Virus record (IMG/VR): IMGVR_UViG_3300018428_000101
Coordinates: 1 to 31,875 of that record
Origin: a virus
Length of the DNA: 31,875 nucleotides
Direction: 5' to 3' (one strand)
Part shown: in pieces, positions 2,447 through 27,176 of the stretch
Numbering within the stretch: the stretch's first letter is position 1
How the letters are laid out: each line of letters starts with the position of its first letter
Translations under genes and position numbers: made by a program
The notes under the pieces: generated by a model
Told to the model about the DNA's origin: nothing
Seen by the model: only the letters and a program-made list of their open reading frames with translations
The model's database searches: none

Positions 2447-2881
2447 ATGAAGAACATAGTTTGTAGTGGCGCACTTTTTTATACTTTAAAGTCTAGTAGA
2501 TTTTTACTTTTACATAGATGTAAAAGTCGACAAAATAATGTATGGGGATTAGTTGGCGGAACAAATGAAGATTTAGAAACTCCTTGGAAAGGCTTACAAA
2601 GAGAAATTGAAGAAGAAATTGGATTTATGCCTGATGTAAAAAAGGCAATTCCGTTAGAAACATTTATTAGTAATGATGAACATTTTAAATTTCATACATA
2701 TCTTTGTGTTGTAAATGAAGAATTTATACCCCAATTAAACAATGAACACGACGGCTACGCTTGGGTAAGTTTTGGAAAATGGCCTAAGCCATTACACCAA
2801 GGTTTGAATAATACTTTAAAGAGTAAAACAAATCAACAAAAATTACAAACTGTTTTTGAACTTATCAAATTGATTGCGTAG
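2447..2881 (+). CDS. Nudix hydrolase
   Basis: 144 residues. A complete Nudix box G-x5-E-x7-REUxEExGU is visible: G38, E44, R52, E53, E56, E57, G59 and F60, within 'GGTNEDLETPWKGLQ' followed by 'REIEEEIGF'. Nudix enzymes hydrolyse a nucleoside diphosphate linked to another group, for example oxidised dNTPs, NADH, ADP-ribose, nucleotide sugars or RNA caps; the box holds the catalytic metal. The substrate cannot be read from the sequence. The N-terminal strand 'CSGALFYTL' and 'FLLLHR' precede the box as usual. It starts 8 bases after gp15 with no clear Shine-Dalgarno, so it probably relies on coupling. Its last 39 bases overlap the 3' end of the opposite-strand repeat gene. A role in nucleotide-sugar turnover beside the glycosyltransferases is possible but speculative. 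Confidence 0.9.
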   Translation: MKNIVCSGALFYTLKSSRFLLLHRCKSRQNNVWGLVGGTNEDLETPWKGLQREIEEEIGFMPDVKKAIPLETFISNDEHFKFHTYLCVVNEEFIPQLNNEHDGYAWVSFGKWPKPLHQGLNNTLKSKTNQQKLQTVFELIKLIA

Positions 2882-7896: not shown

Positions 7897-8279
7897 TAGG
7901 TGATTGTTTCTGAAATAGTATCTGTGTTAAGTGTTGCTTCTGCTGCTACTGTCTGATCATTTAGTTGTCTAGCTTTACTTACAGCAATAGTTACTGCATC
8001 AGTAAAATCTTCCTCACTTAAAGAACTCATCAGAACCATGTTTTCAGGTTGTACTTTTCCTAGTGTAATTAAATCAGCAGAAGCTAAATGCGCAATAACA
8101 TTTATCCAATGATGACGTTCGTCAGCCTCTGGAATATCCATGCTATCGATTGCTTCACAAACTTCTTTATAAAGTTCTGATTCTAAACCTAATTTTTCCG
8201 CTAGGTCTTTTTTTCTTTGTTTTGTATATGCTTGTGCTAAGTCAATATTAATAACTTCGTATAAACTTTTCATTTCCAT
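7896..8279 (-). CDS. Unknown 127-aa protein in the glycosyltransferase operon
   Basis: Not recognised. The chosen start is the ATG at 8279, giving 127 residues. A longer frame reaches a TTG at 8303, but that would overlap the 54-aa gene by 20 bases, and the likely ribosome site AAGGA lies about 10 bases before the 8279 ATG, inside the end of that gene. The protein is mostly helical and acidic: 'SLYEVINIDLAQAYTKQ', 'RKKDLAEKLGL', 'VCEAIDSMDIPEADERHHW', then 'LSEEDFTDAVTIAVSKARQL'. The last 20 residues are Thr/Ala-rich and probably disordered. No catalytic motif, signal peptide or membrane segment is seen. Its stop overlaps the glycosyltransferase start (TAATG). Its place between a small structural-type protein and the transferases would suit an adaptor or chaperone, which is a guess. 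Confidence 0.7.
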   Translation of the reverse strand: MEMKSLYEVINIDLAQAYTKQRKKDLAEKLGLESELYKEVCEAIDSMDIPEADERHHWINVIAHLASADLITLGKVQPENMVLMSSLSEEDFTDAVTIAVSKARQLNDQTVAAEATLNTDTISETIT

Positions 8280-8283
8280 TATA

Positions 8284-8448
8284 TTATGTTCCTTGTCCGC
8301 CAAATGTATCGCTCATTTGAATTGTAGTTCCAGCTGAAATACTCAAAAAAGCACCCAGCCCAGCCATAGTAATTGGAGTACCAGAACCACCAAAGTAGTT
8401 TCTAATCTCTGACATTGTAATTGCTGATCCGGTTGCTGGTAACGCCAT
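8284..8448 (-). CDS. 54-aa mini structural protein (fibre-motif)
   Basis: A short gene read from ATG at 8448 to TAA at 8284, with ribosome site AGGAAAG seven or so bases upstream. The product is 'MALPATGSAITMSEIRNYFG', then 'GSGTPITMAGLGAF' and 'GTTIQMSDTFGGQGT'. The pattern LP-[AS]-[ST]-G-x-I-[ST]-[ML]-S-[ED]-I followed by a second and third 'I-x-M-[AS]' repeat is one I associate with the short N-terminal segment of virion fibre or appendage proteins in T4-like marine phages; here it is a free-standing gene. It is Gly/Thr/Ser-rich with no membrane segment. It is the first gene of the glycosyltransferase operon, so it may be a virion peptide or a modification target, which is inference only. 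Confidence 0.7.
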   Translation of the reverse strand: MALPATGSAITMSEIRNYFGGSGTPITMAGLGAFLSISAGTTIQMSDTFGGQGT

Positions 8449-8530: not shown

Positions 8531-11500
8531 TTATTTATCGAGTAATTTTTTTACCATTTCTTTCAGCTCAGCAATCTCTGCTGCTTGTGCTTCTAGTTTA
8601 GCATCTTGCTCTTTGATTGCTTCAATAAACAATGGAGCAAGTTTTTCATACTTAACAGTAATATAATCTTCACCTGATTTACTCTTATATTCTTTTTCTT
8701 CGCTATCCCAATATTGATCAAAAGGAGCCTTAGCAATCGCTTGTGGTAAAACTTTTTCTACTTCTTGAGCAATAACACCAGCATCATTAATTTGGTTATC
8801 AGGATAGAAACCTAAATCATTGACTTCAGCTTTCCAATCAAAGTTTACACCAGTTAACGACTTTATTTTAGTTAAAGCATTTTCAATTGGTACAATATTT
8901 TCTTTCAATCTTTTATCTGATGAATAGGCTGTAACTTCGCCTACAGCATTCATATTGCGACCAAATGTAACATCGTTATTTGTCAAGTTCCAAATAGCTG
9001 GCCATTGACTGTTTACTTGTGCCCAAGATGTTGAATCGTCTCCGCCACGTAAGATATAAAACAAGTCACTGTTGTTATGTAACATAGCAACATTGTGATT
9101 AGTATCACGGAAATATAGTGTTGGTGAAGTATTCCTAATATAAATGTTTTGGCTTGCTGTTGTAGTGCTACGCAAGAAACCTGAACTATCAATACCATCA
9201 AGTGTATCAGCATCACTAGCACTAACACCAGTTAGGTTACTACCGTCACCTGTAAAACTATTAGCAGTAACATTACCTGTAATACTAATAGAACCACCTC
9301 CACTAAGTGTACCTGAAAAACTATCATTAGTATCGCTGCGTAAGAAACTACCTGAAGATACACCATCAAGTGTATCAGCATTAAGTCCGCTGCCAGGACC
9401 ATCATTACCTTCGTGCCATACTTTGTAGTTGGTGCCACCAACATTATAAAGTAGACCATTTACCCCACTGTTGACATCAAGATATTCATCAGTTCTGTCA
9501 TTGTAGATACGCATTGCTCCACCATTTACATACTGAATATAACCTCTGCGTGTTCCTGCTTGATAGAAACTTATGTAAGGTGATCCAGTTGAACTTTGTG
9601 TTGCTAACCTAAGTTGTTCATTTGAATTCCTATTACCGGTAAGAAGTCCAGTATACGTATCATCAGCATTACTGCGTAAGAATGCTGAGCTATCAATACC
9701 ATCTAAGGTTGTAGCATCTACGCTTGTAAGTCCACTACCGTTACCAGTAAATGTATTTGTACCAATATTAACATCACCAAATCCGCTTGTTATACTACCA
9801 GCATTTAGTGCTCCAGTACCAGTTACGTTACTGTAAGTTCCGCTAAGTCTAGCATTAGGAACAGTTCCACTGCCTAAGTTACTTGCGTTAAGTGCTGTTA
9901 ATCCACTACCGCCACCGTAGAAAGTACCATTTGAATATACATCTTTAGCAACACCAATGCCGCCATCAACAATTAGTGCACCAGTAGTGTTACTAGTTGA
10001 CTGTGTTGTGTTATCGATATTGACAATAGTATTTGAATTAAAGTTCATTGAAGTAGCATTATCTGCTACAATAGTATCAACTGCTATGCTACCTACATTA
10101 GTAATGTTATTATCATTGAAACTTGTAGCACCTAATGATATAGCACCTGTAGCAGTTAATGAGTTATTTCCGATATTAATATTGCCAAAGCCGCTACTAA
10201 TAGCACCAGCATCTAATGTGCCTACTCCAGTAATATCTAATTGGTGTTGTACAACACTGCTAGAACTGATTCTACCATCTGGCACTGTACCAGAGGACAA
10301 ATTATCAGCATTTAGTGCTGTTAAGTTTGTACCTACGCCACTATATCCATTTGTGCCACTAAATGTAAATGCTGTTGTTGAAACAGTTACATTTACTCCA
10401 GGTATACTCAAAGAATTGTTTGTAGCATTACCAATTTGCATAAAGTTACTAGTGCTGTTAGAAGCTGGTTCAATGTCATAACCAAGGAATATGTTATTAT
10501 TACCTGTGGTTAATGTTGTAGCACTTAGGGCACCAAGTACAATGTTGTTATTACCTGTAACAATTTCTAAGGCCTGTAACCCTAATGCTGTGTTATTGCT
10601 ACCAGCAGTACTGTTTGCCATTGTACTCTTACCAACACTAGTATTACCGTCTCCAACACTAGTACGTTGTTCTTGACTGTCTGAACCAATTGCTGTATTG
10701 TTGTTTACACTAGTAGCAGCACTCAATGACGCAAACCCAACTGCAGTATTACCATCACCGGATAAGGCACCTGTCATTGATGTTCCACCGATACCTGTAT
10801 TATGTTCAGCAGCAGCAGTTAAGTTTTCGCCATGTCCAAACATTAAGTTTGTAGCGCCACTATTTCCACCACGTCCAGCATTGAAACCATGTACAGTAAT
10901 ATCACTTGTAAATGTTTTTCCTGCTTGGCTTGTTGGTAATCTAGCATCATTTACTGTACCACTTGACAAGTTAGTTGCATTCAGTGTTGTTAAGCCACTG
11001 CCATTACCAGTTAGTGTTCCGCCAACATGTAAGTTCTTAGCAATACCTACACCACCGTCGACTATCATGGCACCGCTTGTAGTGCTTGTTGCTTGTGTTA
11101 CATTATCTACGTTTACAACAGTTGAACTTGCGAAGTTCATACTTGAACCATTGTCGCCGCTAATAGTATCTAGTGCTAAACTTCCTACATTTGTAATGTT
11201 ATTATCGTTAAAAGATGTAGCGCCTAATGATATAGAACCTGTTGCTGTAAGGGCACTTGTTCCAATATTAATACTACCAAAACCGCTAGTAATACTACCG
11301 CCATCAAGAGCGCCGGTATTTTGTATGCTAGTATTGATTACTGTAGAACCAAGTGTTGTACTAGTAAGAACACTTGTATTGTTTACACGATATTCTTTGC
11401 CACTTATTACATTAACATTCTCGCTAAAGTCCCAGCTATCGTTAGCATTTGACCATGTAATAGTATGATCGGTTGCGCCTTTTAATGTAATACCACCGCC

Positions 11501-14500
11501 GTCTGCTGTCACATCAGTTGGTGTATCTACAGTGCCTAATTCAATGTTTTTATCATCAACTTGTAATGTAGTTGAATTAAGTGTAGTTGTAGTACCGTTT
11601 ACAGTTAAGTCTCCTGTAATATCAACATCACCTGCAATACTAGTGTCACCGTTTGTTCCGTTAATTACAAATTTATTTAAGTCAGTACCAAATCTAAACG
11701 ATCCCGCTTGATTAATTTGTAGTCTTGCTACACCTGCTGTAAAGAAATCTAAATCGTCATTATCAGACCCTGATGTCGTTTCAGCAACAATTTTTGTATC
11801 TTGATCAACATCAATAACACCGCCTAAACCGCTCCAGTTACTTCCGTCATATCCTTCAAATGTGCTATCTGTAGTGTTATAACGTATTTGTCCTTGAGCA
11901 TCTGTAGGACGCTGTGCTGTAGTACCAACAGGTAACTTAATTGCCGAAGTATCACTAAAGTTAGTATAACCAGTAAAGGTTGTGACTCCATCAGTGTCTA
12001 TAGTCATTCTTGTAGTTGCTGTTTGTACAACTTCGCCTGTTGTTCCTGTTTCACCAGTTTTTACAATAAAGTCTCCGCCTGTAGCATTACCTGTACCTAG
12101 GCCAGGTTGTATTGTTATATTACCACCTGCTACGTCTGTTCCAATTCCGCCTTCGCCTTTAATAATTGCTGGAAGAGGAGATGTTCCAAATTCTCCGCCG
12201 CCAATCACAACGTTTTGGTTTTTAAGAACAATAGTATTTTCTTTTGATATTGTACCAACTTGTGTAACAGCCGGATCAGCATTTACGTTTTGATTTGTTC
12301 TAATAGTAAATGATGTTGCGTTAGTAGTAGCACCAATAACTGGCCATTGTCCGTCTAAGTTAGTAATTGTACTTTGATCAATAATTACTGTATCACCAAC
12401 CCTCACGCCTAAAGTTAGAGGAGTATAATTAAATGAGATAGTTGTGCCTGTTAAAACACTACCTGTTAAATCATCACTTAAAAATACTTCGTTTTCGGTA
12501 ATACCAGTAACCGTTGTGTTAGCAGGAATACTACCGCTACCAGTAACTGTCATACCAAATGCAATTGAAGTAGTGTCGCTAAAAATTAAAACCTTTTCAC
12601 CGTTAGCACTAGCATCACTTGTACTTACTTGAATATCTGCTAAATTTACAACAACATCTTGAGTGTTAGTTGCCTCATATGTTTCTACAAAAGTGCTAAT
12701 ATTTCTACTTTCACTATTTTTACCAATTTTAACATTTTCAGCATCGCCGCCAATTTCAATTGTAGTCACATTGTCATTATAGATTTGACCTGTTGCTGTA
12801 CTACTTGAACTTAATCTAGCAGATCCAACATCTAGACCTTCAGCTAGATCGAGTGCTGTACCCCATTCAGGTACTGTTCCATTTGACTTTAAGAATGTAT
12901 TTACTCGACCAATATTTAATGTGTTTAAACTTGCTGCTGATTGAGCGTAGATGATATCACCAACAGCATACGTGGTTATATTTGTACCGCCACGTACAAC
13001 AGGCACAGGACTAGTTAAGTTTGCTGGGTTTAAAAAGTAAGCACTATCTAAACCATCTAATGTTCCAGCATCTACTATTCCATCCTTAATAAACACCTCG
13101 CCACTACCGTTTGAATTTACATCAAATTGTGTTTGTAGGAATCTACTTGTTCCAAGTGTTGAGAATGTTCCAAGTGGATCGTAGTCAGCGTTAGCTATAC
13201 CAATGTTTACTGGATCACCGTAGAATTCAGCATTTGAACTTGATCCTGTTAGTGTAATTGGGTTATCTGTTGTAGATGCTTTTTTGAGACTTTGAACAAC
13301 AGTATCATATCTACTATCACCAAATAATACTGTATCACTATTTGGTACTCCGCTGCCTCCAAGTCTACTTGGTGAAATTGTACCTGAAATAATATTTTCA
13401 GCATCAATGTTTGTAGCAGCAAGTGTATTCCAGTTTGATTTAATTCTGCTAGAAGTGTTAACAATTTCAGTAACTCTAACATTGCTCGGTGTAATTCTCG
13501 CACTACCAACACCTGCTGTACCAATATCTTTTCTGTTTGTAACAAGTCCATTAATACTGCTTAACGCATCTGAACGTAAAGCGTGTAATGTAAATGAGTT
13601 TGTTGTTACTGAACCTACAAAGAATCTTGCGCCATCTGTAATTTCTTTACCGTCAATATTAGGCAATGCATTAGAAGTTGATCCATCTGTTAAAGTATTA
13701 ATTCTAATAGCATCACCAGTAGTTAAACCATTATTTTGAACAAGGAGACTATCGTCTGTTAGGTTAACAGTGAATCTACTTAAATTATGGTTGTTGTTTA
13801 ACGGTGTTGTTAAAAATTCAATTTGATTAATCAAGCTATAATCGTCGTAAATTTCAATGGTATTGTCATCAATCTTTTTAGCGTAATATACTCTACCATT
13901 TAACATACCACCAATAGCAACGTTACCAATTGTGTCATATGTAACTGGATCACCATTTTCCAATCCATGATTAGTAATAGTAATTCTATCATCTGTATAG
14001 TTTACACTACCGCCACCTGCTATGGTACCAGCTAAAAAGTTTAAACTAAGAACGTTATCTAAACCAATATCAAACGCATTTACAACAGCGTCAACATCTT
14101 CAACAAAGTCAATACTTGATGTCGAAGCAACAAATAATTCTCCGCCTAAAATATTAACATAAGCACGTTTTTCAATTGCCGATACTTCAATTTGGAAATT
14201 ACTGCCGGCGCCACCTATGTCAGATGCATTACAACTAACAATATCAGCTACTTCATAACCAGTTCCGCCTCTACGTAAGTCAACATCACTTACTGCTCCT
14301 GCTGTAACTGTAATATCTGCTCTAGCACCAGAACCGGTCCCACTTACATTTGTAAGAGCAACATTTTCATAAATTTGATTACCTTGTGCTGGCAAATAAC
14401 CACTGCCGCCTGTTATATTAGCATTATCAACGTTAACAAGTACACCAAGACGTAGTTCTGTTACAGAACCTTGCGCACCACCATCAGCACTTGTTACAAC

Positions 14501-15103
14501 ACTTCTTACACTACCTGTTCTTGATGTTGTGCTAACATCTATACCTATGTTCTCAATTGTAAACGATGTACCAGATGGGATACTTATCACTTCTCCAAAC
14601 ACATTAAAGGTGTTGTCTTCTGTACATACAACTTCTACTTGGTTACCTACATTAAGGCCATGTGATCCATTTGTTACAATAGTTTGTATGTTACTTGCTC
14701 TAGCAACACTTGATAAATCTACAATGGTAAAGTTATAATCTTCAGTTGGATCAAGTAACAAATACTGACTAGTATTAGAACTTTTTAGGAAGAAGTTATC
14801 AATAATAGCACTTGATGCTCCTTTAGATGTTGGGTGTACACCTGAGTCTACGCCGTTTACAAACAAGTTTAGATTGTTTGTTACATCCCATGGATCACCA
14901 ACACTATCGTCAGTTTCGTCCCAAGCACCGTCGATAGTTGCTACAAGAATGTTTCCACTAACTGAGAAATTTCCTTTAGCATAACCTGTAGCACCAGTAA
15001 CACCTGGTTGTGTAATTGTATCTCCGTCTGTTGCGGTAATATTACCACTAAGTGTAAGTTCAACTTGTTCATAGTTTTCAGTAGCAATGTCTCCAGCTGA
15101 CAA
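8531..15103 (-). CDS. Giant fibre frame with YadA-like repeats and S74 chaperone end
   Basis: 2190 residues if begun at the TTG at 15103, the first accepted start codon after the stop. No in-frame ATG exists until hundreds of residues later and no Shine-Dalgarno precedes the TTG. The frame actually opens right after the TAA of the upstream gene, so this is probably the C-terminal part of that protein. Contents in order: beta-rich Gly/Thr/Asn segments; four 'TLDG.DS..FLR' type repeats (near 684, 1800, 1911, 1968); 'YDGSNWSGLGG' and 'DVDQDTKI'; a ~120-residue duplicated block (about 1268-1390 and 1632-1753); NTA.G repeats of the YadA-head type (about 1410-1545); and a C-terminal Peptidase_S74 intramolecular chaperone (from about 2055, 'SSDKRLKENI', 'GVIAQEVEKVLPQA'). 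S74 domains trimerise fibres and usually cut themselves off at the Ser. It ends in a coiled coil 'AAEIAELKEMVKKL'. It likely forms a trimeric host-binding fibre. Confidence 0.75.
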   Translation of the reverse strand: MSAGDIATENYEQVELTLSGNITATDGDTITQPGVTGATGYAKGNFSVSGNILVATIDGAWDETDDSVGDPWDVTNNLNLFVNGVDSGVHPTSKGASSAIIDNFFLKSSNTSQYLLLDPTEDYNFTIVDLSSVARASNIQTIVTNGSHGLNVGNQVEVVCTEDNTFNVFGEVISIPSGTSFTIENIGIDVSTTSRTGSVRSVVTSADGGAQGSVTELRLGVLVNVDNANITGGSGYLPAQGNQIYENVALTNVSGTGSGARADITVTAGAVSDVDLRRGGTGYEVADIVSCNASDIGGAGSNFQIEVSAIEKRAYVNILGGELFVASTSSIDFVEDVDAVVNAFDIGLDNVLSLNFLAGTIAGGGSVNYTDDRITITNHGLENGDPVTYDTIGNVAIGGMLNGRVYYAKKIDDNTIEIYDDYSLINQIEFLTTPLNNNHNLSRFTVNLTDDSLLVQNNGLTTGDAIRINTLTDGSTSNALPNIDGKEITDGARFFVGSVTTNSFTLHALRSDALSSINGLVTNRKDIGTAGVGSARITPSNVRVTEIVNTSSRIKSNWNTLAATNIDAENIISGTISPSRLGGSGVPNSDTVLFGDSRYDTVVQSLKKASTTDNPITLTGSSSNAEFYGDPVNIGIANADYDPLGTFSTLGTSRFLQTQFDVNSNGSGEVFIKDGIVDAGTLDGLDSAYFLNPANLTSPVPVVRGGTNITTYAVGDIIYAQSAASLNTLNIGRVNTFLKSNGTVPEWGTALDLAEGLDVGSARLSSSSTATGQIYNDNVTTIEIGGDAENVKIGKNSESRNISTFVETYEATNTQDVVVNLADIQVSTSDASANGEKVLIFSDTTSIAFGMTVTGSGSIPANTTVTGITENEVFLSDDLTGSVLTGTTISFNYTPLTLGVRVGDTVIIDQSTITNLDGQWPVIGATTNATSFTIRTNQNVNADPAVTQVGTISKENTIVLKNQNVVIGGGEFGTSPLPAIIKGEGGIGTDVAGGNITIQPGLGTGNATGGDFIVKTGETGTTGEVVQTATTRMTIDTDGVTTFTGYTNFSDTSAIKLPVGTTAQRPTDAQGQIRYNTTDSTFEGYDGSNWSGLGGVIDVDQDTKIVAETTSGSDNDDLDFFTAGVARLQINQAGSFRFGTDLNKFVINGTNGDTSIAGDVDITGDLTVNGTTTTLNSTTLQVDDKNIELGTVDTPTDVTADGGGITLKGATDHTITWSNANDSWDFSENVNVISGKEYRVNNTSVLTSTTLGSTVINTSIQNTGALDGGSITSGFGSINIGTSALTATGSISLGATSFNDNNITNVGSLALDTISGDNGSSMNFASSTVVNVDNVTQATSTTSGAMIVDGGVGIAKNLHVGGTLTGNGSGLTTLNATNLSSGTVNDARLPTSQAGKTFTSDITVHGFNAGRGGNSGATNLMFGHGENLTAAAEHNTGIGGTSMTGALSGDGNTAVGFASLSAATSVNNNTAIGSDSQEQRTSVGDGNTSVGKSTMANSTAGSNNTALGLQALEIVTGNNNIVLGALSATTLTTGNNNIFLGYDIEPASNSTSNFMQIGNATNNSLSIPGVNVTVSTTAFTFSGTNGYSGVGTNLTALNADNLSSGTVPDGRISSSSVVQHQLDITGVGTLDAGAISSGFGNINIGNNSLTATGAISLGATSFNDNNITNVGSIAVDTIVADNATSMNFNSNTIVNIDNTTQSTSNTTGALIVDGGIGVAKDVYSNGTFYGGGSGLTALNASNLGSGTVPNARLSGTYSNVTGTGALNAGSITSGFGDVNIGTNTFTGNGSGLTSVDATTLDGIDSSAFLRSNADDTYTGLLTGNRNSNEQLRLATQSSTGSPYISFYQAGTRRGYIQYVNGGAMRIYNDRTDEYLDVNSGVNGLLYNVGGTNYKVWHEGNDGPGSGLNADTLDGVSSGSFLRSDTNDSFSGTLSGGGSISITGNVTANSFTGDGSNLTGVSASDADTLDGIDSSGFLRSTTTASQNIYIRNTSPTLYFRDTNHNVAMLHNNSDLFYILRGGDDSTSWAQVNSQWPAIWNLTNNDVTFGRNMNAVGEVTAYSSDKRLKENIVPIENALTKIKSLTGVNFDWKAEVNDLGFYPDNQINDAGVIAQEVEKVLPQAIAKAPFDQYWDSEEKEYKSKSGEDYITVKYEKLAPLFIEAIKEQDAKLEAQAAEIAELKEMVKKLLDK
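8532..8539 (-). promoter_or_regulatory. Late-promoter-like octamer GATAAATA
   Basis: GATAAATA on the - strand, close to the T4 late promoter core TATAAATA. It overlaps the last codons and the stop of the S74 fibre gene. It lies about 84 bases before the 54-aa gene. The octamer is short and the region AT-rich, so chance is possible. The same motif occurs in the 19214-19322 gap. Confidence 0.4.
9845..11300 (-). repeat. Duplicated ~120-aa block in the S74 fibre
   Basis: Two copies, about 10935-11300 and 9845-10209. Each begins 'SGFG.INIG', continues 'LTATG.ISLGATSFNDNNIT', 'NVGS.A.DTI', 'ST..GA.IVDGG.G.AK', 'G.GSGLT.LNA.NL.SGTV', and ends '.ARL'. The intervening segment holds the YadA-like repeats. 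A third, shorter 'SGFGDVNIG...GNGSGLT' piece lies near 9710-9780. The copies are clearly homologous but diverged, so they come from domain shuffling within the fibre and not from a recent duplication. Confidence 0.85.
10480..10870 (-). repeat. YadA-head-like NTA.G repeats
   Basis: Within the S74 fibre frame, successive short repeats read 'NTGIGGTSM', 'NTAVGFASL', 'NTAIGSDS', 'NTSVGKSTM', 'NTALGLQAL', 'NIVLGALSA', 'NIFLGYDI', spaced about 15 residues apart. This is the pattern of the left-handed beta-roll head of trimeric autotransporter adhesins such as YadA. In a phage fibre it would be a trimeric binding or spacer segment. The role is inferred from family resemblance. Confidence 0.75.
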
Positions 15104-15151
15104 ATCAACAGCTGGAATATCATCTACTTGTAAAAGCCTTGATAGATAACC

Positions 15152-18100
15152 TTATGTGTTTGTGTTTGTAAACTGTCTAGTAGCAGGAATAAGTTCGCCA
15201 TTCAACTGACCGTTTGTGTTCAACTGAACAATAGCGCCTGGAACAGCCGCAGTAGACACAGTTTTGTCAACAAAACCACCTAGCCTGTTACCAATAAACG
15301 ATCTAATAGCTAACTGCGTAACCAATCGTGCATCACTTGGACCGCCAATTTCGTCATCACCTAAGTTAACATCAGTTGAAATTTCTTCAATAGCAACATC
15401 ACTCAAACTTAATTTCAACGCATCAAGTTCGTCCACCTGAACTTTGTTTCTAAATGTAATGTTACCAGTTCTGTTAAACGCTGTAATAAAGTCACCAACT
15501 TTAAAGTCACCAAGTTCGTTTGTACCTGATGAATAAACACGACCTGGTAATTCTTCATATTGTTCAAACTCAGATCTTGTGTTACCACCGTTTTGTGGTA
15601 GTGCGTTATAGTCTGTTCCTGAACCTGCGTATTCCCAAGTGTGTGCGGACGAGTTAACAATACTTGGTCTGTGGAACCAAATTTGCCTCTCGGGTAAGTT
15701 TCCTGTGTTTGTGATACTGCTACTTCCGTCTGTTGCTGTAATACTAAACGTTGCTGTACCTAACCCAAGTTTTGTTGATACTTCATTTATACTAATATTT
15801 GTATTAGGACTACCTGCGTGATCAGCACTAATAATGCTTGTAGCATCAAATTGTATTCTAAGAACACTTGATCCAACAGCAACTTCTTCGATACTTACTA
15901 CTAGTCTACGTTCTGCTGGTTCCCAACTAGAAACAAAGGCACTATTATTGTTTGCTCCTGTTGTACCTGTAATAGCTCTTCCTGGAACAAATTCATAACT
16001 TTCAGCACCAGACTCTAGTATCAATGTTTGATACGTAGTATGTGAACTTAAAATTTCTTCAACAAAGAATTCAATAATATTTGTTCTAAAAATATGATTG
16101 CCAGAGTTAGTTATGTTTTCAAATAGTTGTACTGGAAATTCCAAACTATCATCAAATGTTAAACTAAATGTATCAGGATCTAATACGTTAGCATAATAAG
16201 TCTGTTCGTCATCTAATCCACCAATTGGAATATTTCCATTAGCATCATAGATAAGTTTTTCACCATTTGTAAATCCATGCCCTGTAATTGTAAAAATACT
16301 TGTACCTTTATCAACATCAGCTGTTGAACTAAAAGTTGTTTCAGTTGGAGTTGGAATAAAGTCGTTTGTTACATCTCCTTCACTACTTACTTCTTGTGGT
16401 GCTGGAATTTCTTCTGGTGATCTAATTGCTTCACTTACAATGTTAAATCTACTTTGAACAAAATCTTCAATATCCGTTGTTATGCCAGTTTTGCCTGTAA
16501 TAACTGCGTTTGTATAGATAGCAGATTGTTGTATAGCAGCAATTGTTTGTAGTTCTTGTCCGCTAATACTACTACGTGAAGAGTCTGCTAAGTTAGCAGC
16601 AAAGTAACTTAATCCAGCACTACGAGAATATCTGTTACCTGTATCCCATGTATCTTTAGCAACAGCTTCAACAATTAATTTAGAATCTCTTAAACATTTT
16701 GCTTGATCATAATCAAAATTATACCATTTTGCTGCGTCAATACTTTCGTTAATATACTGTGTTACTCTTTGAGCAATGTTAATTGCGCCTATTTCATCTA
16801 ATCTTATAAAATCATCTTGTAAAGTTTGACTTACACCAAGAGCAGTCAAATCAGGGTTGATCGGGTCTGCTAATGTTCCAGCATTGGTTTGAATATGTTG
16901 AATAATTTCATCTATTCTAGCTTTAGCAAAATCTGCTTCTGTTTGTGTAGCAGCAGTACCGCTTGTATCTTGTGTAATGATGTTTCCTGAAGACACTGTA
17001 ACTGCTTCTTCTTTAACAATCTTTTCAACAATCTCTTTCATTCTGCCCCAAGCTGCGACAGTTTCTTCTTTTTGTCCTGTACCGTATACAGCAGTACCGT
17101 CAACAAAATACTGTTGAGCTGCTATCAAACTTTCTAAGTTACCGCCAGTGGAAAGATCATATGTTATAGCATCTACAATTTTACTAGCATCGTTTTCACA
17201 TGCTGCTACATTATATACAAATCCTGTAGAGAAAGGAGCAATATTTCCAGCAACTTGAGCATTAATCCAAGCTGTTAATTCTTTTTGTATAAATGTTCTG
17301 TTTGCTAACAATTGTGCTACAGCATTACCACTATTGGTGTTGATAGCAGTAGGCAATACTCTAGCATCAACTAATTCGTCTCCTGCTATGCTCGCACTAC
17401 TACCAGCACCAAGAATTTCTATGATTTCATCCCAAAGTGCATCTGTTCTTGATTCAAACGTTGAATCTTGTACAATACCCGCTGTAAAAGTTTTAGCATT
17501 GCCATAAGCATCAATATGTTGATCTTTTTGCGCCGCAAATAATGAAGCATCAAACCTACCATTAAAATATGTTAATGCTGCGTTGATAGTTCTAGCGTTA
17601 CTATTTAAAGCAGCATCATATCTAATAGATTCTATAAGTAACCTAGTGTCTCTTCTACATTTATCTTCGTTATATTCAAAGCCAGCATAAATGCTTGGAG
17701 AACCAGCTGCGTTAGAAATTTGTAAGTTAATCCAATCAACTGTATCTTGGGCAATAGCATCTCTTTGATTTAAAATTAAAGTATACGCTCTTTTATAACC
17801 AGGATCTCTGTATCTTAAAATAAATTCTTCAACAGGCGCATCACGATTTACACCAACAATAGTAATTGTTTGTTTACCTTCACTAGCACCAGTAGATACA
17901 ACATGTGCTCTGTCAAATTCAAATGCTTTTGGTGAATAACCACTAGATCTCAACGCATACAATCCAAAGTTTGTAGCGGAGTTAGTAATGGAACAATAAC
18001 CACCTGACTGTGTGTAAACACCGTTTAGTAGGAAAATTTGGAAACACGAAACGATCTGTGCGTAAGCATCGTTAAGTAGACGCCAGCCTGTACCACCAAA

Positions 18101-19213
18101 TGAAAGCATGGTGTATGCGTTAGCAACCATTGATTTACCTTGCTCAGGTGTGGCTCCTACAACTGGATTCTCAGCTTCAATATTGTAACGAGGAACGTTT
18201 GGAGATTCAACCAACGCACCATCAATCTTAGCACCACTACCTCCCAAGAACGAAATAATGGAACAGTTCTGCGTATATGGTGAAGTAACAATAGTTGGTT
18301 TTGTGTTTGGTAAGTTTGTGTATTCGCTTCTATCTGTTATATCAGTAGCATTAGGATCGTCAAACACTGTAGCATAGTCCCAAGTAATAAGTGGAACTTG
18401 GTTATCGTCAACACCGTCACGGAATGTAAATTCACCAAAGTAACAAGCATTACGTACACGAAACATGTCCAAGTTAGCATTAGCTGGACGTACAATACAA
18501 CCACGCAAACCGTCGCCTTTAACAACAACATTGTCTGGAATAATAAGTGGGTTATCTTCTGTATAGTCACCAACCGCAACTTTGATATTAACTCTTGTAC
18601 CTGTAATTGTTCCATCTGGATTGTAAACAATAGCACTGGCTAATTTACATGCTCTTTTAATTGTTTTTACTGGAGCACTTTGTCCATCGTTATCATCGTC
18701 GCCTTGTTCAGCACTGACATAAATTACGTTACCGCCAAAAATATCAGGATCTCCAAATGCTAGATTTCCGTTACCGTCTGTTTTTAAAATTTGTCCAACA
18801 GTACCATTAACTAGAGGCAGAGTTAAATCATAACTGTTTGGAAGGTTATCTGGTGCTTTAAGACTAATCCCATCTTCACCCGAACCGATACTTTCTCTAA
18901 AAGTAAGTTTTGTAGCATCTTCTAAATCAACATCGTCTTTTATATTAAATCCAGCATTAGTCACTGTCATTTTTTCATCGCCGTTAACACTCATGCTGAT
19001 CTCAGCACTTGCGCTATCTAACAAGTCGTCTACTCTAACTTCAGTATTACCTTCAAATATTCTTTTTGTAATATCTTGGACAGTGTTATCATCTCTTAGT
19101 AGATATACTTTACCGTCTGCTGTGTTGATGGCTAATTCGCCGGATTCAAGTTGTGCTACACTAGGTTGATTACCAGCGACCGCACTTCGCTTGTGTCTAA
19201 TTGTTGTTGCCAT
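15152..19213 (-). CDS. Large fibre/structural protein with beta-helix and K-C-x-R-D modules
   Basis: 1353 residues. It starts at ATG 19213 behind a near-perfect ribosome site TAGGAGG. The N-terminus 'ATTIRHKRSAVAGNQP', 'QLESGELAINTADGKVYL' is the short attachment segment typical of phage tail fibres. Next are 'SYDLTLPLVNGTVGQILKTD' and, from about residue 163, a right-handed beta-helix-like domain beginning 'VIYVSAEQGDDDNDG' with 'VNIKVAVGDYTEDNPL' and 'VVVKGDGLRGC'. Three helical modules around 509-929 carry Y-[ND]-x3-C-x-[RN]-D. The C-terminal part has 'HTWEYAGSGTDYNALP' and 'LGDFKVGDF', also found in the 2617-aa neighbour. It stops at TAA after 'RQFTNTNT'; the same frame continues open for over 2200 codons, giving 3560 residues if the TAA were read through. 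It may therefore be a truncated or regulated N-terminal form. Likely tail fibre or baseplate-attached. Confidence 0.8.
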   Translation of the reverse strand: MATTIRHKRSAVAGNQPSVAQLESGELAINTADGKVYLLRDDNTVQDITKRIFEGNTEVRVDDLLDSASAEISMSVNGDEKMTVTNAGFNIKDDVDLEDATKLTFRESIGSGEDGISLKAPDNLPNSYDLTLPLVNGTVGQILKTDGNGNLAFGDPDIFGGNVIYVSAEQGDDDNDGQSAPVKTIKRACKLASAIVYNPDGTITGTRVNIKVAVGDYTEDNPLIIPDNVVVKGDGLRGCIVRPANANLDMFRVRNACYFGEFTFRDGVDDNQVPLITWDYATVFDDPNATDITDRSEYTNLPNTKPTIVTSPYTQNCSIISFLGGSGAKIDGALVESPNVPRYNIEAENPVVGATPEQGKSMVANAYTMLSFGGTGWRLLNDAYAQIVSCFQIFLLNGVYTQSGGYCSITNSATNFGLYALRSSGYSPKAFEFDRAHVVSTGASEGKQTITIVGVNRDAPVEEFILRYRDPGYKRAYTLILNQRDAIAQDTVDWINLQISNAAGSPSIYAGFEYNEDKCRRDTRLLIESIRYDAALNSNARTINAALTYFNGRFDASLFAAQKDQHIDAYGNAKTFTAGIVQDSTFESRTDALWDEIIEILGAGSSASIAGDELVDARVLPTAINTNSGNAVAQLLANRTFIQKELTAWINAQVAGNIAPFSTGFVYNVAACENDASKIVDAITYDLSTGGNLESLIAAQQYFVDGTAVYGTGQKEETVAAWGRMKEIVEKIVKEEAVTVSSGNIITQDTSGTAATQTEADFAKARIDEIIQHIQTNAGTLADPINPDLTALGVSQTLQDDFIRLDEIGAINIAQRVTQYINESIDAAKWYNFDYDQAKCLRDSKLIVEAVAKDTWDTGNRYSRSAGLSYFAANLADSSRSSISGQELQTIAAIQQSAIYTNAVITGKTGITTDIEDFVQSRFNIVSEAIRSPEEIPAPQEVSSEGDVTNDFIPTPTETTFSSTADVDKGTSIFTITGHGFTNGEKLIYDANGNIPIGGLDDEQTYYANVLDPDTFSLTFDDSLEFPVQLFENITNSGNHIFRTNIIEFFVEEILSSHTTYQTLILESGAESYEFVPGRAITGTTGANNNSAFVSSWEPAERRLVVSIEEVAVGSSVLRIQFDATSIISADHAGSPNTNISINEVSTKLGLGTATFSITATDGSSSITNTGNLPERQIWFHRPSIVNSSAHTWEYAGSGTDYNALPQNGGNTRSEFEQYEELPGRVYSSGTNELGDFKVGDFITAFNRTGNITFRNKVQVDELDALKLSLSDVAIEEISTDVNLGDDEIGGPSDARLVTQLAIRSFIGNRLGGFVDKTVSTAAVPGAIVQLNTNGQLNGELIPATRQFTNTNT
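16425..17685 (-). repeat. Three K-C-x-R-D helical modules in the 1353-aa protein
   Basis: The modules open with 'YNEDKCRRDTRLLIESIRYD', 'YNVAACENDASKIVDAITYD' and 'YDQAKCLRDSKLIVEAVAKD'. Each has the Cys, the acidic end of the first helix and a following small aromatic segment. The second has lost Lys and Arg around the Cys (AACEND). They are homologous to the ten modules of the 2617-aa neighbour. Confidence 0.8.
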
Positions 19214-19300: not shown

Positions 19301-19333
19301 AGAAAAAGTAGTAGCTTTTTATTTAAAAGCTAC
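19301..19333 (-). terminator. Intrinsic terminator of the 2617-aa gene
   Basis: A perfect 9-bp stem (gtagctttt / aaaagctac) with a 5-base loop is followed on the - strand by TACTTTTTCT. The upstream arm includes the final codons of the 2617-aa gene, whose TAA stop lies partly in the loop. The GC content of the stem is low, so termination may be partial. Confidence 0.65.
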
Positions 19334-22300
19334 CACCATCTATTGTGTCAGTCCAAACTGGCGTTGCGTCAGCATCAGCTGTTACTGTAAGAATCTGGAA
19401 ACTATTACTTGCGTCAGCACTTCCAGCAGCGGCAGTAACTTGTACTGGATCAGCAACATTACCATAAAGGATACCATTTTCAGTAAATGTACTTACACCT
19501 GTACCACCATATTGTACTTCTAAATCTGTAACTAATGTTAGTGTGCCAGCATCTAGTGTTGTAACAACAATTCTGTTGTTAATAGCATCGATCATCTCGG
19601 TGCTATCATCAGCAAAGATACTTCCTCTAAATCCTGCTGCGTCAAGAATACCTGTTACAAATAAATCTTGATCAATTTGAACATTTGTTGTGAATGTGCT
19701 TGTATCTTCACTTATTCTAAGTTTTTCTACATCTGCGCCATTAATTGTAGTAGTTACTACCATGTCAAAGTCTTCTTGACCAGTTGTAACATCAGTACTA
19801 ATAGCTTCAATCTTAGCACCATTTACAAACAAATTGTTTGTTGTTTCAATTTCAAAATTTAATCCAACACCTGAACCTGCTGATGCTGTTCCTGATTGGT
19901 TATGATGGGCTAGTGTAATTGGTGTACTAATACTTGATGTTGTACTATCGCCAGCATCAGTAATAATTTTAAATCCATCAGTAGATTGAATTGTATTAGC
20001 AGGTATTAAAATTTTATCTGTAGCTTTTTCAGTAAGTTGTAGCACATCAGATTCGTTGCCACTTATATAACCTCTTACATGTAAGTTACGAGCGATTCCG
20101 ACACCACCTTCTACAGTCATAGCACCTGTTAAGTAATCAGTGCTTTCGGTTGTATTTTCTAATACTGTAAGCACACTATCACGGATTGTAAAGGTGGTTG
20201 TGGTTAGTTCTAAGCGCTCTACACCGTCGGTAAAGAAGTCTAATGTATCTTCGTCTGCTCCTGGGCTCGATTCAGGACGTATAAAGGTGTCTTGGTCAAC
20301 ATCTTTGACACCGCCAAGTGTTCCCCAGTTAGCACCGTCATATCCTTCAAACGTTTCGTCTGTTGTGTTAAAACGTATTTGACCAACTGCTGCTGTACTA
20401 TCTGCTCCACGTTGTGCTGTTGTTCCTACTGGAATCTGTAGTGTACCGACACTGTTGAATATTACAATCTCACTGTTTACTTGGAACACACTGTCTGTAG
20501 ATACAGCACCTATGTTTATTTCTGTAGCATCACCAAACGCATTTACTGTTTGAACATTAGTGTTTAACAGATTAAAAGTATCAAGTATGTTTGTTGTAAT
20601 ATCACCACCGTCGACATTTAGATCTAAGTCAATGTCAACATTGTGTTTGATAGTTGTAGTACCAATGCCAACAGCACCGATTGTTAATTGTGTTGTGCCA
20701 CCAAACGCATTTACAATATTAGCGTTGTCATTTAATAAATTAAATGTTGTAGCAGTAGTAGTTAAGTCACCGCCGTCAACTGCTAAATCAGCATCGATTT
20801 GTACATCGCCTAATACTACTCCGCCTGTAAGTTTGTTGAGATATCTGTTTTCAACATAGTTTGTAACAGCAACTTGTGTTGGCACAGTGTTTTGATCTGC
20901 TTGACCAGTGCTGGCTCTTAAGTCTGAACTGTTACTTACTTCTTTTAATTCAACACCAACTGGAATACCAAAACGCTTGAACGGTCCTATACTAGCAATA
21001 CCACTTAAATTAATTTCTTCAGCATTAAGTGTAATAGCGCCGCTTAGTGCGTTAACACTAAAGAAGTTACCAACTCTAAAGTTACCAATTTGGTCAACTG
21101 TACCACCAGCAAATACTTTACCGTTGTCTGTCTCTGTAATTTCGTTTTCAGCAATAGCACTACCGCCAAAGAACGGAAGTGCGTTATAGGTAACACCTGC
21201 GCCAACATATTCAAATGCGTGACCCGAAGTACTTACAGTTGAAACGTTTTGCATACTACCTAATGTTCCTTCAGCAACGTATGTTAACTGTGGGAATAAT
21301 GTTAGTTCAGCTACACCGCCATATTCTAGGTTTAGCAATCTAATTGCTTCGTCTTCAATTGCTTGTTCATCTGCTAAAACAATTGTACGTTTAGCATTGG
21401 CTGTTGTATCTCCAAGAACGTCATAAAAATGATCTATTTCGTATGGTAATTCTGGAGCAGTTCCTGCGCTAATAATTTCAGCAATTTTAGTAATATTTGC
21501 CACTACAGATGTAGTAGCTTCATTTGTTCCGCCAACTGTGCCATAAGTTTGTGTAAGTGTAACACCATCGCTTGTTGTAACAGTTTTATTCTGTCCAATT
21601 TGCGACATTAAGTTTGCTAAATGTTTATAAGCAAATTCTGTAACACCTTCTTGATCAGCATTACTTCCTGCTGTTGTAATACCAGCTAAAATTGTACCGG
21701 TGTAATATGCTTCACCTGCTCTACGTGTTTGCTTGTTACCGCCATACATCATATCATACAAAGCAGCATCAATAATATATTTTGTATCTCTTTCACACTT
21801 TGTTACATTATACGAAAAGCCTAGTATGTTTTCTTTAATAAATGTAATAACACCTTCTTGTACTACAGTGCTATTTGCCAACAATACATCTAATGGAGCA
21901 ACCATTGTAGCAAGTGCCCAGCTTGTGTCAGGTTCTTGATCACCTGGAGTACTTAACAAGTTTCCGGCATTTATAGCATCAATAGTAATGTTAAACAAGT
22001 CATTTGATGTTGTTACTTCATTTGAAGTTCCATATGTTCCAACTAAACTTTGTGTTTCGGTATTACCTGTTGTAGGCGTTACCGCAATACCTTGAATTAC
22101 TTGACCTGCTACTTGTTTTAATCTAGTTAATGCTGTAGTAGTTTGGCTTTCTTGTCCATACACTTGACTTTCATTATTGTAAAAATAACTTCTAGCACTT
22201 AACAAAGAACTTTTGTTACCTGTATAAAGTAAGTCATGTGTAGTAGATTCAATAAGATAGCCTGTGTCTCTACGACATTTCTCTTGATTATAACTAAATC

Positions 22301-25300
22301 CATTTAAGCTATTGTTTATGTAATCAATAACACTTTGTACAAGATCAGCACTCGAACTATCTCCCGCACTTAGAATTGTTTCTCTTGTTGCTTGAGTAGT
22401 AGCGTTAGCACCTACTAGTGTTGGTACTGTTTCAGCTGGTAATACTGCTAATGTGTTAGCATTCACTGTGTTTTCAATAATATCTGCTAATGCTTTTACA
22501 GCAGCAGAATCGTCTGCGTCAGCTGCTCCAGCACTAGTATTTTGTCCAGCATATGTTCCTAAACATACTTGTTCAGCAATTATACCTAATTGGTTTAGTG
22601 CGCCAACTGTTTCTAATCTTTGATCATATGGTAAAACACTTACAGCACCTTCAAAGTATGCTCTAGCGTTTTGTATGCTTGCTAGGTTTGTTTCATATTG
22701 AATATCATGTGATAAAGCATCAACAATCAGCCCAGTATCTCTTTCACACTTGCTTTGATCGTATGTTAAGTAAGGATATGTTGTATTAATCCAAGTTATT
22801 AATTCTGAAATGATATATGCTCTATTATTCTGTAACATTAATCGAGCATTTGTTTTACTTGTATCGCCTGCTGGATTTGTCCATACTAGAGCGTCGGCAT
22901 TGCCTTCACCGTTTTGTATAATGTCGATTATTTCGTCAAACAAGCCATTTAAAATTGTTACACTAGCAGTATCGGCAGAAACAGCCGCAGCAGTTTCAGT
23001 TTTTAAATGCGTAATTGCTGCTACAGTTTGTGTAATTTGATCGCTAATAACATATGCGCTGTTTGCTCTGTAATAAGATCTTCCAGCTGTGATACTGTTG
23101 TAATTTGTTCCAGTAACTAAGTCATTTGTAACTGCGTCTAAAATCAATTGCGAATCTCTAGCACATTTTGCTGAATCATATACAAAATATTGATCATTAA
23201 TGTAAGCAATTGTTTCTTCTATTAAGAATGCTTTGTTATCTTGTAATTGTCTAGCAGCATCAATTAATTCTTGACTTGCTGGTGTAGGTGACGGATATGT
23301 ATATCCTTCACTAGGCAATGTTCCATTTTCTAATAACTCAAGCACAGTATCCCAACCATCAGTTACTCTAGATGTAGCAATAGAACTAGCTGTTAAGTAT
23401 GTTAATGATAGTCTTTTTGCCTCACGCATAGCAAGTATAGTTGCTGGAAGTTGGTCGTTTGTTACAACACTTGATACACCTTGTAAATATCTTTGACCTG
23501 CTACAATAGCATTGTGGTTAGAATTTAATTTAGCATCTCGGATAACAGCTTGTAAAATTAAGTCAACATCTCTTTTACACTTTTCTCTATCATAAGTAAA
23601 TGTTGGAAAATTTTCTAAAATATAATTTGTAGTTTCAGCAGCGAAGTTGTCTTGTTGTCCAAAGACTGACGCAAATGCTGTTTGTAATGAAGCAGGAGCC
23701 CAATCTGTTACAGCGTTATTTTTTGCTACAATATTTGTTGTGTTACCTGCTGTTAACACGTCAATGATTATTTGTATTAACGATGTAGAACTTGTTACTT
23801 CTGCAGCACTTGCTGGTTCGTTTGAAGTATTTTGTGTAAGTGTATTACCTGAACTCTTTGATAATGCTGATTCTAAAAGTATACCTGTAACTACACCTTG
23901 TAAGTGCGTGTACGCATCTATAGTAGCAGTTGTTTCTTCGGCAACAGTTCCTAATTGATTTGTTGTTCCTACAAAATAACTTAGTGCTGTTTGACGAGTA
24001 GCACTATTGCCTTCGTACAATATATCATAAATTAATGCGTCAACAATATATCCAACGTCTCTTTCGCATTTCTTTTGGTTGTATCCTAAACTTGGAAAGT
24101 TTTGATTTATATAAGCAGCTATTTCAGTTTTTATAAATGTTTTGTTAGCAAGTAACTGATTTTTAGCATTTACTCTAGTTGTAATTACTCCTGTTGGATC
24201 TGGATAAACTATTGTATCAGCATTAGTAATATTACCTATAGTAATTTCTTCGATTACATCATCTTGTATTGTTGATTTGTTAGTTTTCCAATTTGTTGTT
24301 GCTGTTTGCAATCCTGCTGTTGCCCAAGTAATTGAAGGTTCAATAAGTGTTGGCATACCTGCTACACTATTCGCTGTAATTACATCAGCAATAATGCTTG
24401 CTAGTCCTGCTACTTCGTCTACTTCAACAGATGATGCTAAGTTACCGTTTGTTGTTTGTCCTGGATAATTTTCTATTACAATTTGACTTAAAATATTGTT
24501 TGCTAAGTGATTGTATGCTGCGGCAGTAATTGGTCTTTGATCTGCTGGAAGCTGACTTGTTGTTCCTTCAAAGTACGCCTCTGCTGCTCTCCTAGTAGCA
24601 AAGTTTCCTCCGTACTGAACATCAAATGTAATAGCATCAACAATATACTTTGTATCTCTAGCACACTTAATTGCGTCATAATCTAAAGAAGGATAATTTG
24701 TTTGTATCCATGTGTTCAATTCAGTAGATATATAAGTTCTGTTAGCTTGTAATAATACTCTAGCATACTCTTTATTAATATCGCCGCCGGTTGGTGTGTT
24801 AAACACAAGAACATCAGCACTTGAATCTGTGCTTACTGCTCCGTTTTCTATAATGTCAAGTATTTCATCAAACGCTGCATTTGATCTAGATACAGCAGTA
24901 GTATCCGATGCCATATAGGTATCGCTTGCTATTTGCTTCATGTATTCATATGAAGCAATTGTTTGTTGGAATTGAGCACTTTTTACATACGAACTGTTTG
25001 CTCTTTGATAAGAAAGACCTGTAGTCACTGCGTTATAGTTTGTTTCTAATGCTACATCAAATGCCACACTATCTACAATTTGCCCAACATCTCTTCTACA
25101 GGTAGTTGTATTATAAGCCCTACCAGTAATTATGTCAATGACTTCGTCGTATCCTGCTTTTACTCTTGCTACCGCTGTGCTATCTGCTGCTACATCTGCT
25201 AGTGCTAGTGCTAAATCTCTAATATGAGTATATGCTGCTACTGTAACTTCAAGTTGTTTTTCTGCTACAGTAGTTGCGTTTGCCCTTGCGTAAGATAATC

Positions 25301-27176
25301 CTGCTGTGACACTGTTATAGTTTGTTCCTAATGCTGTATCAAATGCTACTGCTTCAGTAATTAATCTTGTGTCTCTTTCACACTTGTCTTGATCGTAACT
25401 TAGATCAGTAAATTGTTCAGCAATATATTTTATAGTTTCTTCTACAATAAAATCTTTGTTTAAAAGAATATTATCTTTTGCTGCTACAGCACCATTACTT
25501 GTAGCATTACTATCATCGTATACAATGTCAGGAGCAGCACTACTATCTTCTTCAGCAATAAAATTTGTAATAATAGCTATTTTTTCAATAACATCGTATC
25601 TAAATTGTTCATTTGCTGGATCGCTATCTGGTATACGTGCAAGTATCTCGTCTCTTACTGCTTCAATACCAAATATAGTAGGTTGTAATTGTTGATTTAA
25701 AACTTTAGCACTATTAGCACGTAAGTAACTTCTACCAGCAGATATACTTTGATAATTTGTACCTAATGCTATATCTCCCATTACAGCATCAATAATTCTG
25801 TTTACATCTCGCCTACAAACTGTTTCGTCGTATATAAATGGCTGAGTTGTAATGTCATTACCAGTTACATAGTAAACAGTAGAATCACCTTCAAATTTAA
25901 TAATACTACCTGTCTGTGGAACGTCTCGTAAACTGTTTACAACAATACTTTGATTTTTAATTAAGTTAGCAGTAGCAGTCGCTTGAGAAGTAAATCCTCC
26001 TCCTGTAAAAGTAATAGTTGGCTGCGTTTGATACCCACTGCCTGGGTTGTCAACTGTTACAGATGTAACTTCTCCTCTTAATGCGTCAACACTTGCTGTA
26101 CCTTGAGCGGTAACACCTCCTGGTGTTTCAGGCGCTCCAAATGTAACAGTGGGTACTCCTGTGTATCCTGCTCCTGTGCTGTTAACTGTTACACTACCAA
26201 CACTTGAAGTGTATGTTTGTGACGGTCGAGCTGTAGTATAAACTTTTTCAAATAATCCGTCAGCAATAATACCAAATGTACCAAAGTCACTAACTGAGTT
26301 TGAGATACTAAGATAACCACCTTTAGTGGTCATAAATCCAATACGTGTAAAAACTGTAAAGCAGCTAACAATCTGTGTATAACCAAAGTTAGTAATATGG
26401 AAACCAATACCACCTTGAGCAATTTGTGTAAACGCATCCGCAACAAAACTGAATACTAACGAACGCTGGTCGTAATCGTTACCGTCAACAAGGATACCAT
26501 TACCCCCGCCATTTTCATTAACACGCTTTGCTAATGGTACATTAGGATCGTTTTCAATTGGTCGAGCAGTAGCAGGTACACCTTCGATTTGTTCAGTTAC
26601 AAATGGTGTAAATTCAGTACCGTCATTCAACCAAGGACCGTTCATGTTTGTACAGTTTTGTACATATGGTGATACTGTTACTAGTGCTCCAGGTTTAATT
26701 CTTGCACACCAGCCCGGATCTTGTAAAGCTCTAAATGTTAATTGGAACAAATAACACGCACAATCCATAAGGAAAATGTCTGATGTAGAATTATTTGGAA
26801 AAATTTGTGTATTACGCAAACTGTCACCGCGTACAGTTTGTCGTTCTTTCATTGTGATAGGATTGTCTTCATAAAAGTCACCAGGCGCAACTTTAATTGT
26901 TGCTCCAGCTGGTGCTGCTTCTACCGCAGCTTTTACTGATCTTTTAGCCCTATCTTTGCCGGCACCTAAGCCGTCATTGTCATCGTTACCTTCAAGTGAT
27001 ACATAAAATGTAAGGTTATTAGTTGGACCAGAACTCGATCCTGAAACTGCTAAGTCACCATCAATAGTAACCTTACCTGTTTGTGGTGTAATAGACACAT
27101 TACCATCTGCATCAATAATAAGTTCTTTATTATCAATTTTGCGTCTGTATAAACTTTGCTTTTTAATAAATTCCAT
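19323..27176 (-). CDS. 2617-aa beta-helix and repeat-module fibre/structural protein
   Basis: The largest gene, starting at ATG 27176, six bases after the 110-aa gene. The N-terminus 'RRKIDNKELIIDADGNVSIT' and 'GKVTIDGDLAVSG' lead to a beta-helix-like domain (about 55-330) beginning 'LTFYVSLEGNDDNDG', with 'GATIKVAPGDFYEDNPITM' and 'RQTVRGDSLRNTQIFP', paralogous to the one in the 1353-aa protein. Two 'GYTGVPTVTF' / 'GYQTQPTITF' repeats follow. Residues about 442-1950 contain ten helical modules of roughly 100-190 residues with Y-[DN]-x3-C-x-RD. The end has 'HAFEYVGAGVTYNALP', 'GNFRVGNF', two 'LAVDGGDLTTT' / 'LNVDGGDITTN' units with 'TFNLLN..', 'YDGANWGTLGG', 'DVDQDTF' and 'LTGAMTVEGGVGIARNLHV'. 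There is no S74 domain. Likely a long tail fibre or other virion appendage. It is paralogous at both ends with its neighbour. Confidence 0.8.
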   Translation of the reverse strand: MEFIKKQSLYRRKIDNKELIIDADGNVSITPQTGKVTIDGDLAVSGSSSGPTNNLTFYVSLEGNDDNDGLGAGKDRAKRSVKAAVEAAPAGATIKVAPGDFYEDNPITMKERQTVRGDSLRNTQIFPNNSTSDIFLMDCACYLFQLTFRALQDPGWCARIKPGALVTVSPYVQNCTNMNGPWLNDGTEFTPFVTEQIEGVPATARPIENDPNVPLAKRVNENGGGNGILVDGNDYDQRSLVFSFVADAFTQIAQGGIGFHITNFGYTQIVSCFTVFTRIGFMTTKGGYLSISNSVSDFGTFGIIADGLFEKVYTTARPSQTYTSSVGSVTVNSTGAGYTGVPTVTFGAPETPGGVTAQGTASVDALRGEVTSVTVDNPGSGYQTQPTITFTGGGFTSQATATANLIKNQSIVVNSLRDVPQTGSIIKFEGDSTVYYVTGNDITTQPFIYDETVCRRDVNRIIDAVMGDIALGTNYQSISAGRSYLRANSAKVLNQQLQPTIFGIEAVRDEILARIPDSDPANEQFRYDVIEKIAIITNFIAEEDSSAAPDIVYDDSNATSNGAVAAKDNILLNKDFIVEETIKYIAEQFTDLSYDQDKCERDTRLITEAVAFDTALGTNYNSVTAGLSYARANATTVAEKQLEVTVAAYTHIRDLALALADVAADSTAVARVKAGYDEVIDIITGRAYNTTTCRRDVGQIVDSVAFDVALETNYNAVTTGLSYQRANSSYVKSAQFQQTIASYEYMKQIASDTYMASDTTAVSRSNAAFDEILDIIENGAVSTDSSADVLVFNTPTGGDINKEYARVLLQANRTYISTELNTWIQTNYPSLDYDAIKCARDTKYIVDAITFDVQYGGNFATRRAAEAYFEGTTSQLPADQRPITAAAYNHLANNILSQIVIENYPGQTTNGNLASSVEVDEVAGLASIIADVITANSVAGMPTLIEPSITWATAGLQTATTNWKTNKSTIQDDVIEEITIGNITNADTIVYPDPTGVITTRVNAKNQLLANKTFIKTEIAAYINQNFPSLGYNQKKCERDVGYIVDALIYDILYEGNSATRQTALSYFVGTTNQLGTVAEETTATIDAYTHLQGVVTGILLESALSKSSGNTLTQNTSNEPASAAEVTSSTSLIQIIIDVLTAGNTTNIVAKNNAVTDWAPASLQTAFASVFGQQDNFAAETTNYILENFPTFTYDREKCKRDVDLILQAVIRDAKLNSNHNAIVAGQRYLQGVSSVVTNDQLPATILAMREAKRLSLTYLTASSIATSRVTDGWDTVLELLENGTLPSEGYTYPSPTPASQELIDAARQLQDNKAFLIEETIAYINDQYFVYDSAKCARDSQLILDAVTNDLVTGTNYNSITAGRSYYRANSAYVISDQITQTVAAITHLKTETAAAVSADTASVTILNGLFDEIIDIIQNGEGNADALVWTNPAGDTSKTNARLMLQNNRAYIISELITWINTTYPYLTYDQSKCERDTGLIVDALSHDIQYETNLASIQNARAYFEGAVSVLPYDQRLETVGALNQLGIIAEQVCLGTYAGQNTSAGAADADDSAAVKALADIIENTVNANTLAVLPAETVPTLVGANATTQATRETILSAGDSSSADLVQSVIDYINNSLNGFSYNQEKCRRDTGYLIESTTHDLLYTGNKSSLLSARSYFYNNESQVYGQESQTTTALTRLKQVAGQVIQGIAVTPTTGNTETQSLVGTYGTSNEVTTSNDLFNITIDAINAGNLLSTPGDQEPDTSWALATMVAPLDVLLANSTVVQEGVITFIKENILGFSYNVTKCERDTKYIIDAALYDMMYGGNKQTRRAGEAYYTGTILAGITTAGSNADQEGVTEFAYKHLANLMSQIGQNKTVTTSDGVTLTQTYGTVGGTNEATTSVVANITKIAEIISAGTAPELPYEIDHFYDVLGDTTANAKRTIVLADEQAIEDEAIRLLNLEYGGVAELTLFPQLTYVAEGTLGSMQNVSTVSTSGHAFEYVGAGVTYNALPFFGGSAIAENEITETDNGKVFAGGTVDQIGNFRVGNFFSVNALSGAITLNAEEINLSGIASIGPFKRFGIPVGVELKEVSNSSDLRASTGQADQNTVPTQVAVTNYVENRYLNKLTGGVVLGDVQIDADLAVDGGDLTTTATTFNLLNDNANIVNAFGGTTQLTIGAVGIGTTTIKHNVDIDLDLNVDGGDITTNILDTFNLLNTNVQTVNAFGDATEINIGAVSTDSVFQVNSEIVIFNSVGTLQIPVGTTAQRGADSTAAVGQIRFNTTDETFEGYDGANWGTLGGVKDVDQDTFIRPESSPGADEDTLDFFTDGVERLELTTTTFTIRDSVLTVLENTTESTDYLTGAMTVEGGVGIARNLHVRGYISGNESDVLQLTEKATDKILIPANTIQSTDGFKIITDAGDSTTSSISTPITLAHHNQSGTASAGSGVGLNFEIETTNNLFVNGAKIEAISTDVTTGQEDFDMVVTTTINGADVEKLRISEDTSTFTTNVQIDQDLFVTGILDAAGFRGSIFADDSTEMIDAINNRIVVTTLDAGTLTLVTDLEVQYGGTGVSTFTENGILYGNVADPVQVTAAAGSADASNSFQILTVTADADATPVWTDTIDGGSF
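21325..25850 (-). repeat. Ten K-C-x-R-D helical modules in the 2617-aa protein
   Basis: The module openings read 'YDETVCRRD', 'YDQDKCERD', 'YNTTTCRRD', 'YDAIKCARD', 'YNQKKCERD', 'YDREKCKRD', 'YDSAKCARD', 'YDQSKCERD', 'YNQEKCRRD' and 'YNVTKCERD'. Each is followed by '.I.DA...D', then 'G(T)N...S..AG.SY.RAN' or 'GN.AT...A..YF.GT', and later a 'D.I..II.NG' helix. Two sub-types are visible: one with 'TNY.S..AG.SY.RAN' (1, 2, 3, 7) and one with '.GN..TR.A..YF' (4, 5, 10). The Cys is invariant in all ten. The modules are of unequal length because of inserted segments. Confidence 0.9.

Follow-up and report, generated by a model that had tools for sequence, protein, structure and literature searches.

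Organisation of the fibre locus

The window, that is the whole stretch of 31,875 nucleotides analysed here (IMG/VR record IMGVR_UViG_3300018428_000101), carries on its minus strand two adjoining open frames that are separated by a single TAA. The first of these (15152..19213) starts with an ATG preceded by AGGAGG, comprises 1353 codons followed by the TAA (15154-15152), matches tail fibre families in PHROGs and forms the proximal, N-terminal part of a fibre gene. Beyond the stop the frame stays open in the same register from 15151 to a TAA at 8531, giving a distal, C-terminal part (8531..15151) of 2206 sense codons and a stop, which ends in a Peptidase_S74 or chaperone of endosialidase domain (profile match at the C terminus, E 2.8e-17). 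The residues read after the internal stop are GYLSRLLQVDDIPAVDL. Positions 8531-19213 thus span 10683 bases or 3561 codons, in agreement with the first-pass annotation of this DNA, which had described the same layout and had pointed out that the downstream frame has no ATG near its start, only a TTG at 15103 (15101..15103, minus strand) lacking a Shine-Dalgarno sequence. We found no ATG in the first 114 codons past the stop, and the TTG is the only nearby start-like codon.

A paralogous fibre protein of 2617 residues is encoded on the same strand (19323..27176), shares modules with both halves and has PHROG tail-fibre matches. Residues 1184-1310 of the proximal half align with residues 1979-2111 of this paralogue (32%, E 4e-13), which continues for about 506 residues past the shared module, bearing out the earlier observation that the matching domain is followed there by more protein. 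The distal half aligns with the paralogue as well, over residues 1065-1201 and 2240-2384 respectively (45%).

Near the fibre gene, the window encodes a gp23 major capsid protein (29376-30548; PF07068, E 1.8e-102) and a gp15-like sheath stabiliser (PF16724, E 2.6e-22), a combination that marks the virus as T4-type. The gp23 is closest to those of jumbo T4-like phages (Sinorhizobium phage Phosso, 71%; Vibrio phage 2.275.O, 70%; PA5oct group, 67%), and parts of the fibre match cyanophage fibres at ~30-52%. Jumbo-phage-like gp23 and cyanophage-like fibres together amount to a mosaic of structural genes. A search for the host in genome_contigs found no relative. Elsewhere in the window, the TTG start listed for the ORF at 7896-8303 is probably false; the homologue in locus L090 begins at an ATG that aligns with an internal in-frame ATG (MKSLYEV...) of this ORF. 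A protein of 1493 residues (2843-7324), adjoining a glycosyltransferase-like gene, has no match in Pfam or PHROGs, and its homologue in L090 (4613-9103) reads as a long series of similar repeats in which the motifs 'TEMFW' and 'FDR..NH.F' recur.

The stop site in homologues

Two scans of IMG/VR with the junction yielded 80 loci, in every one of which exactly one codon separates the two flanking matches, to the end of the proximal half and to the start of the distal half. That codon is a sense codon in all 53 distinct sequences (AAT 21, GAT 10, CAA 8, GAA 6, AAC 2, AAA 2, GCA 2, CCT 1, CCA 1), in searches that may omit records very near the window's own, where an identical TAA-bearing copy could be hidden, and that kept two contigs 99.9% identical to it. 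The variety of sense codons indicates that the site tolerates N, D, Q, E, K, A or P. In the fibre frame of these 53 relatives, 160,563 codons in all, there is no internal stop, and the 25 relatives that are complete at both ends have lengths of 3161-3930 codons. A pattern scan of viral_contigs found no TRR codon within the junction motif, compared with 77 stretches, including a few unrelated sequences, when any codon was allowed there.

Among cultured cyanophages, the giant fibres of the Kyanoviridae (Synechococcus phage DSL-LC03, WJZ47903.1; S-SCSM2R, XQU50025.1) have matches to both halves, in order, inside one long CDS; they share only ~30-47% identity with the window fibre over parts, and differ from it in that the window gene has an internal TAA. 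Judged by these sequence comparisons, the fibre family is one gene spanning both halves, and the single open frame of an S74-tipped T4-like fibre is interrupted in the window only and intact in all relatives. We consider it very probable (roughly 95%) that 8531-19213 is likewise one gene, encoding a tail fibre of ~3560 residues in a T4-like phage, and that the TAA stems from a single G-to-T difference in this record.

A homologue of the window's S74 tail ends the fibre in 40 of the 42 relatives whose sequence includes the 3' end. The remaining two (L015 and L026, a single lineage) have a different, unrelated tail in place of S74, and the fibre tip appears to be exchangeable.

The same homologues bear on the alternative of two separate genes, with TTG 15103 as the start codon of the second. 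The window shares its TTG at this site with 27 of the 39 other sequences examined, but as an ordinary leucine codon, for which 12 of 40 sequences have TTA, CTT or CTA. All relatives read through the junction as one frame, and none provides a conserved start and ribosome-binding site for a second gene; two genes with a conserved second start were what the first-pass annotation had named as speaking against a single fibre, and the homologues have one gene instead. Two separate genes are accordingly highly improbable. Restart of translation at TTG 15103 was also rejected, since the leucine codon is not conserved as TTG and has no Shine-Dalgarno sequence.

Readthrough and recoding

Programmed readthrough of the stop, giving short and long fibres, would be consistent with the intact frame beyond it and with a 132-nt stretch that folds somewhat better than shuffled sequences (z -1.7; 9/200 as good). 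The stop itself, however, is unconserved, being present in 0/53 homologues and in nothing recovered by the viral_contigs scan. The two nearest relatives, which have GAA and no stop, carry an identical copy of a hairpin located ~38 nt downstream, and most other relatives have lost or rearranged it, so that it serves no stop. Among the related genes with an intact extension we found neither a conserved stop nor a conserved stimulatory context or RNA structure after it, and a literature search for readthrough in tail-fibre genes found nothing close. Short and long products from one start, as readthrough would give here, are made by the P2 E / E+E' frameshift, the extension of which is also found on similar proteins of several P2-like phages (PMC3091744), whereas the window stop occurs in one record only. 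Nor is TAA recoded here: it terminates 12 of the 14 listed ORFs, a count that includes the 1353-aa ORF, and an alternative code was rejected on the ground that TAA ends most genes in the window. We regard programmed readthrough as very unlikely, and give just as little credence to a TAA that is real and maintained in one phage population, with mostly short and few full-length fibres made through leaky termination or a host suppressor tRNA.

Origin of the stop

The window is 99.9% identical to two contigs, IMGVR_UViG_3300022923_000071 and IMGVR_UViG_3300020601_000047, both of which read GAA at its TAA. They jointly cover the whole window with no indels, and on this ground assembly breakage at the stop site was rejected. 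The window differs from one or both of them at 27 positions, comprising 23 synonymous third-position changes, two conservative replacements (I/V and T/S), one intergenic change and the stop. Where all three overlap (14809-17862, 3054 bases), the stop is the sole change private to the window, and the window's base at 15154 was seen in 0/78 outgroup alignments. Given GAA in the nearest relatives and the absence of this base from the outgroups, the stop either arose very recently by one coding-strand G-to-T at codon position 1 or is unreal. Of the three explanations offered in the first-pass annotation, a recent nonsense change and a sequencing error stand as a class, the stop being private and one base from GAA, and readthrough falls with the lack of a stop in any homologue; the guess that CAA had changed to TAA gives way to the GAA of the nearest relatives.

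Five differences from IMGVR_UViG_3300022923_000071 (L086) fall within 38 bases of the fibre gene (14935-14972), compared with ~1 per kilobase elsewhere, and we propose that in that contig this cluster reflects either a short recombined segment or locally mixed strains.

Within the single-gene reading, the TAA may be a technical error, the true base giving a sense codon and the consensus being wrong at one position owing to low coverage, template damage at that base or an artefact of mixed strains. G-to-T is often discussed as an error of the damage type; the stop alone among the differences from the two near-identical relatives is disruptive, it interrupts a gene that all relatives keep whole, and it is the odd one beside 26 other differences that fit viable variants. 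Against this, the record looks clean, with no other suspicious differences across the window, and an error would have had to strike an unlucky spot, as only 3.6% of random single substitutions in the fibre frame are computed to yield a stop (23% being synonymous). Alternatively, the TAA may be a real private nonsense mutation in a genome that is defective or conditionally viable, or in a variant able to do without the distal fibre. The record's other differences resemble genuine population variants, which suggests that the assembly tracks a real strain; but only 2 of the 25 other coding differences among the near-identical strains are replacements, a strong depletion that makes a large truncation at consensus frequency unlikely, and no other relative has a truncation.

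In a rough weighing, ~23 synonymous differences would imply in the order of 100 mutations and ~3-4 stops before selection, and with replacements surviving at only a few per cent, fewer than ~0.1 surviving stops would be expected. If the consensus is taken to be wrong at a rate of 1e-5 to 1e-4 per base, ~0.01 to 0.1 erroneous stops would result. As the two expectations are of the same order, error and real mutation are weighted nearly equally: we give technical error an even chance and put a real nonsense mutation at slightly under even odds.

Consequences for the fibre

If taken at face value, a single coding-strand G-to-T would have turned the glutamate codon of the nearest relatives into TAA, and the gene as written would yield a stub of 1353 residues without the distal half and the S74 folding domain. 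S74 fibres need their C-terminal chaperone for folding. With no credible restart site, almost no distal product would be expected, and a genome with this stop would probably be defective, unless the stop was introduced by sequencing or assembly, or is by chance suppressed in the host. Structure prediction for 314 residues around the junction, using the sequence of an intact relative, gave a mean pLDDT of 50 with low confidence at the junction itself, and a confident beta domain that starts ~23 residues past the stop position; a PDB fold search with this poorly predicted model returned no significant match.

Ordinary nonsense (ochre) mutations of phage tail fibres likewise interrupt, by one base change, the frame of a fibre gene that is whole in all other respects, although the window stop, unlike these, is known only from an assembled environmental sequence. 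We conclude that the TAA is an isolated nonsense change or a wrong base within a single fibre gene that is unremarkable elsewhere, and no regulatory device, and we read the window fibre as an S74-tipped single-gene member whose copy is either broken or misread in sequencing. Were the stop real and maintained, the phage would make two fibre lengths, against which the comparison with its relatives speaks. For annotation, automatic gene calling would list two fibre genes at this locus, with the S74 half as a separate TTG-start protein, instead of the single gene of about 3200-3900 codons found in the family.
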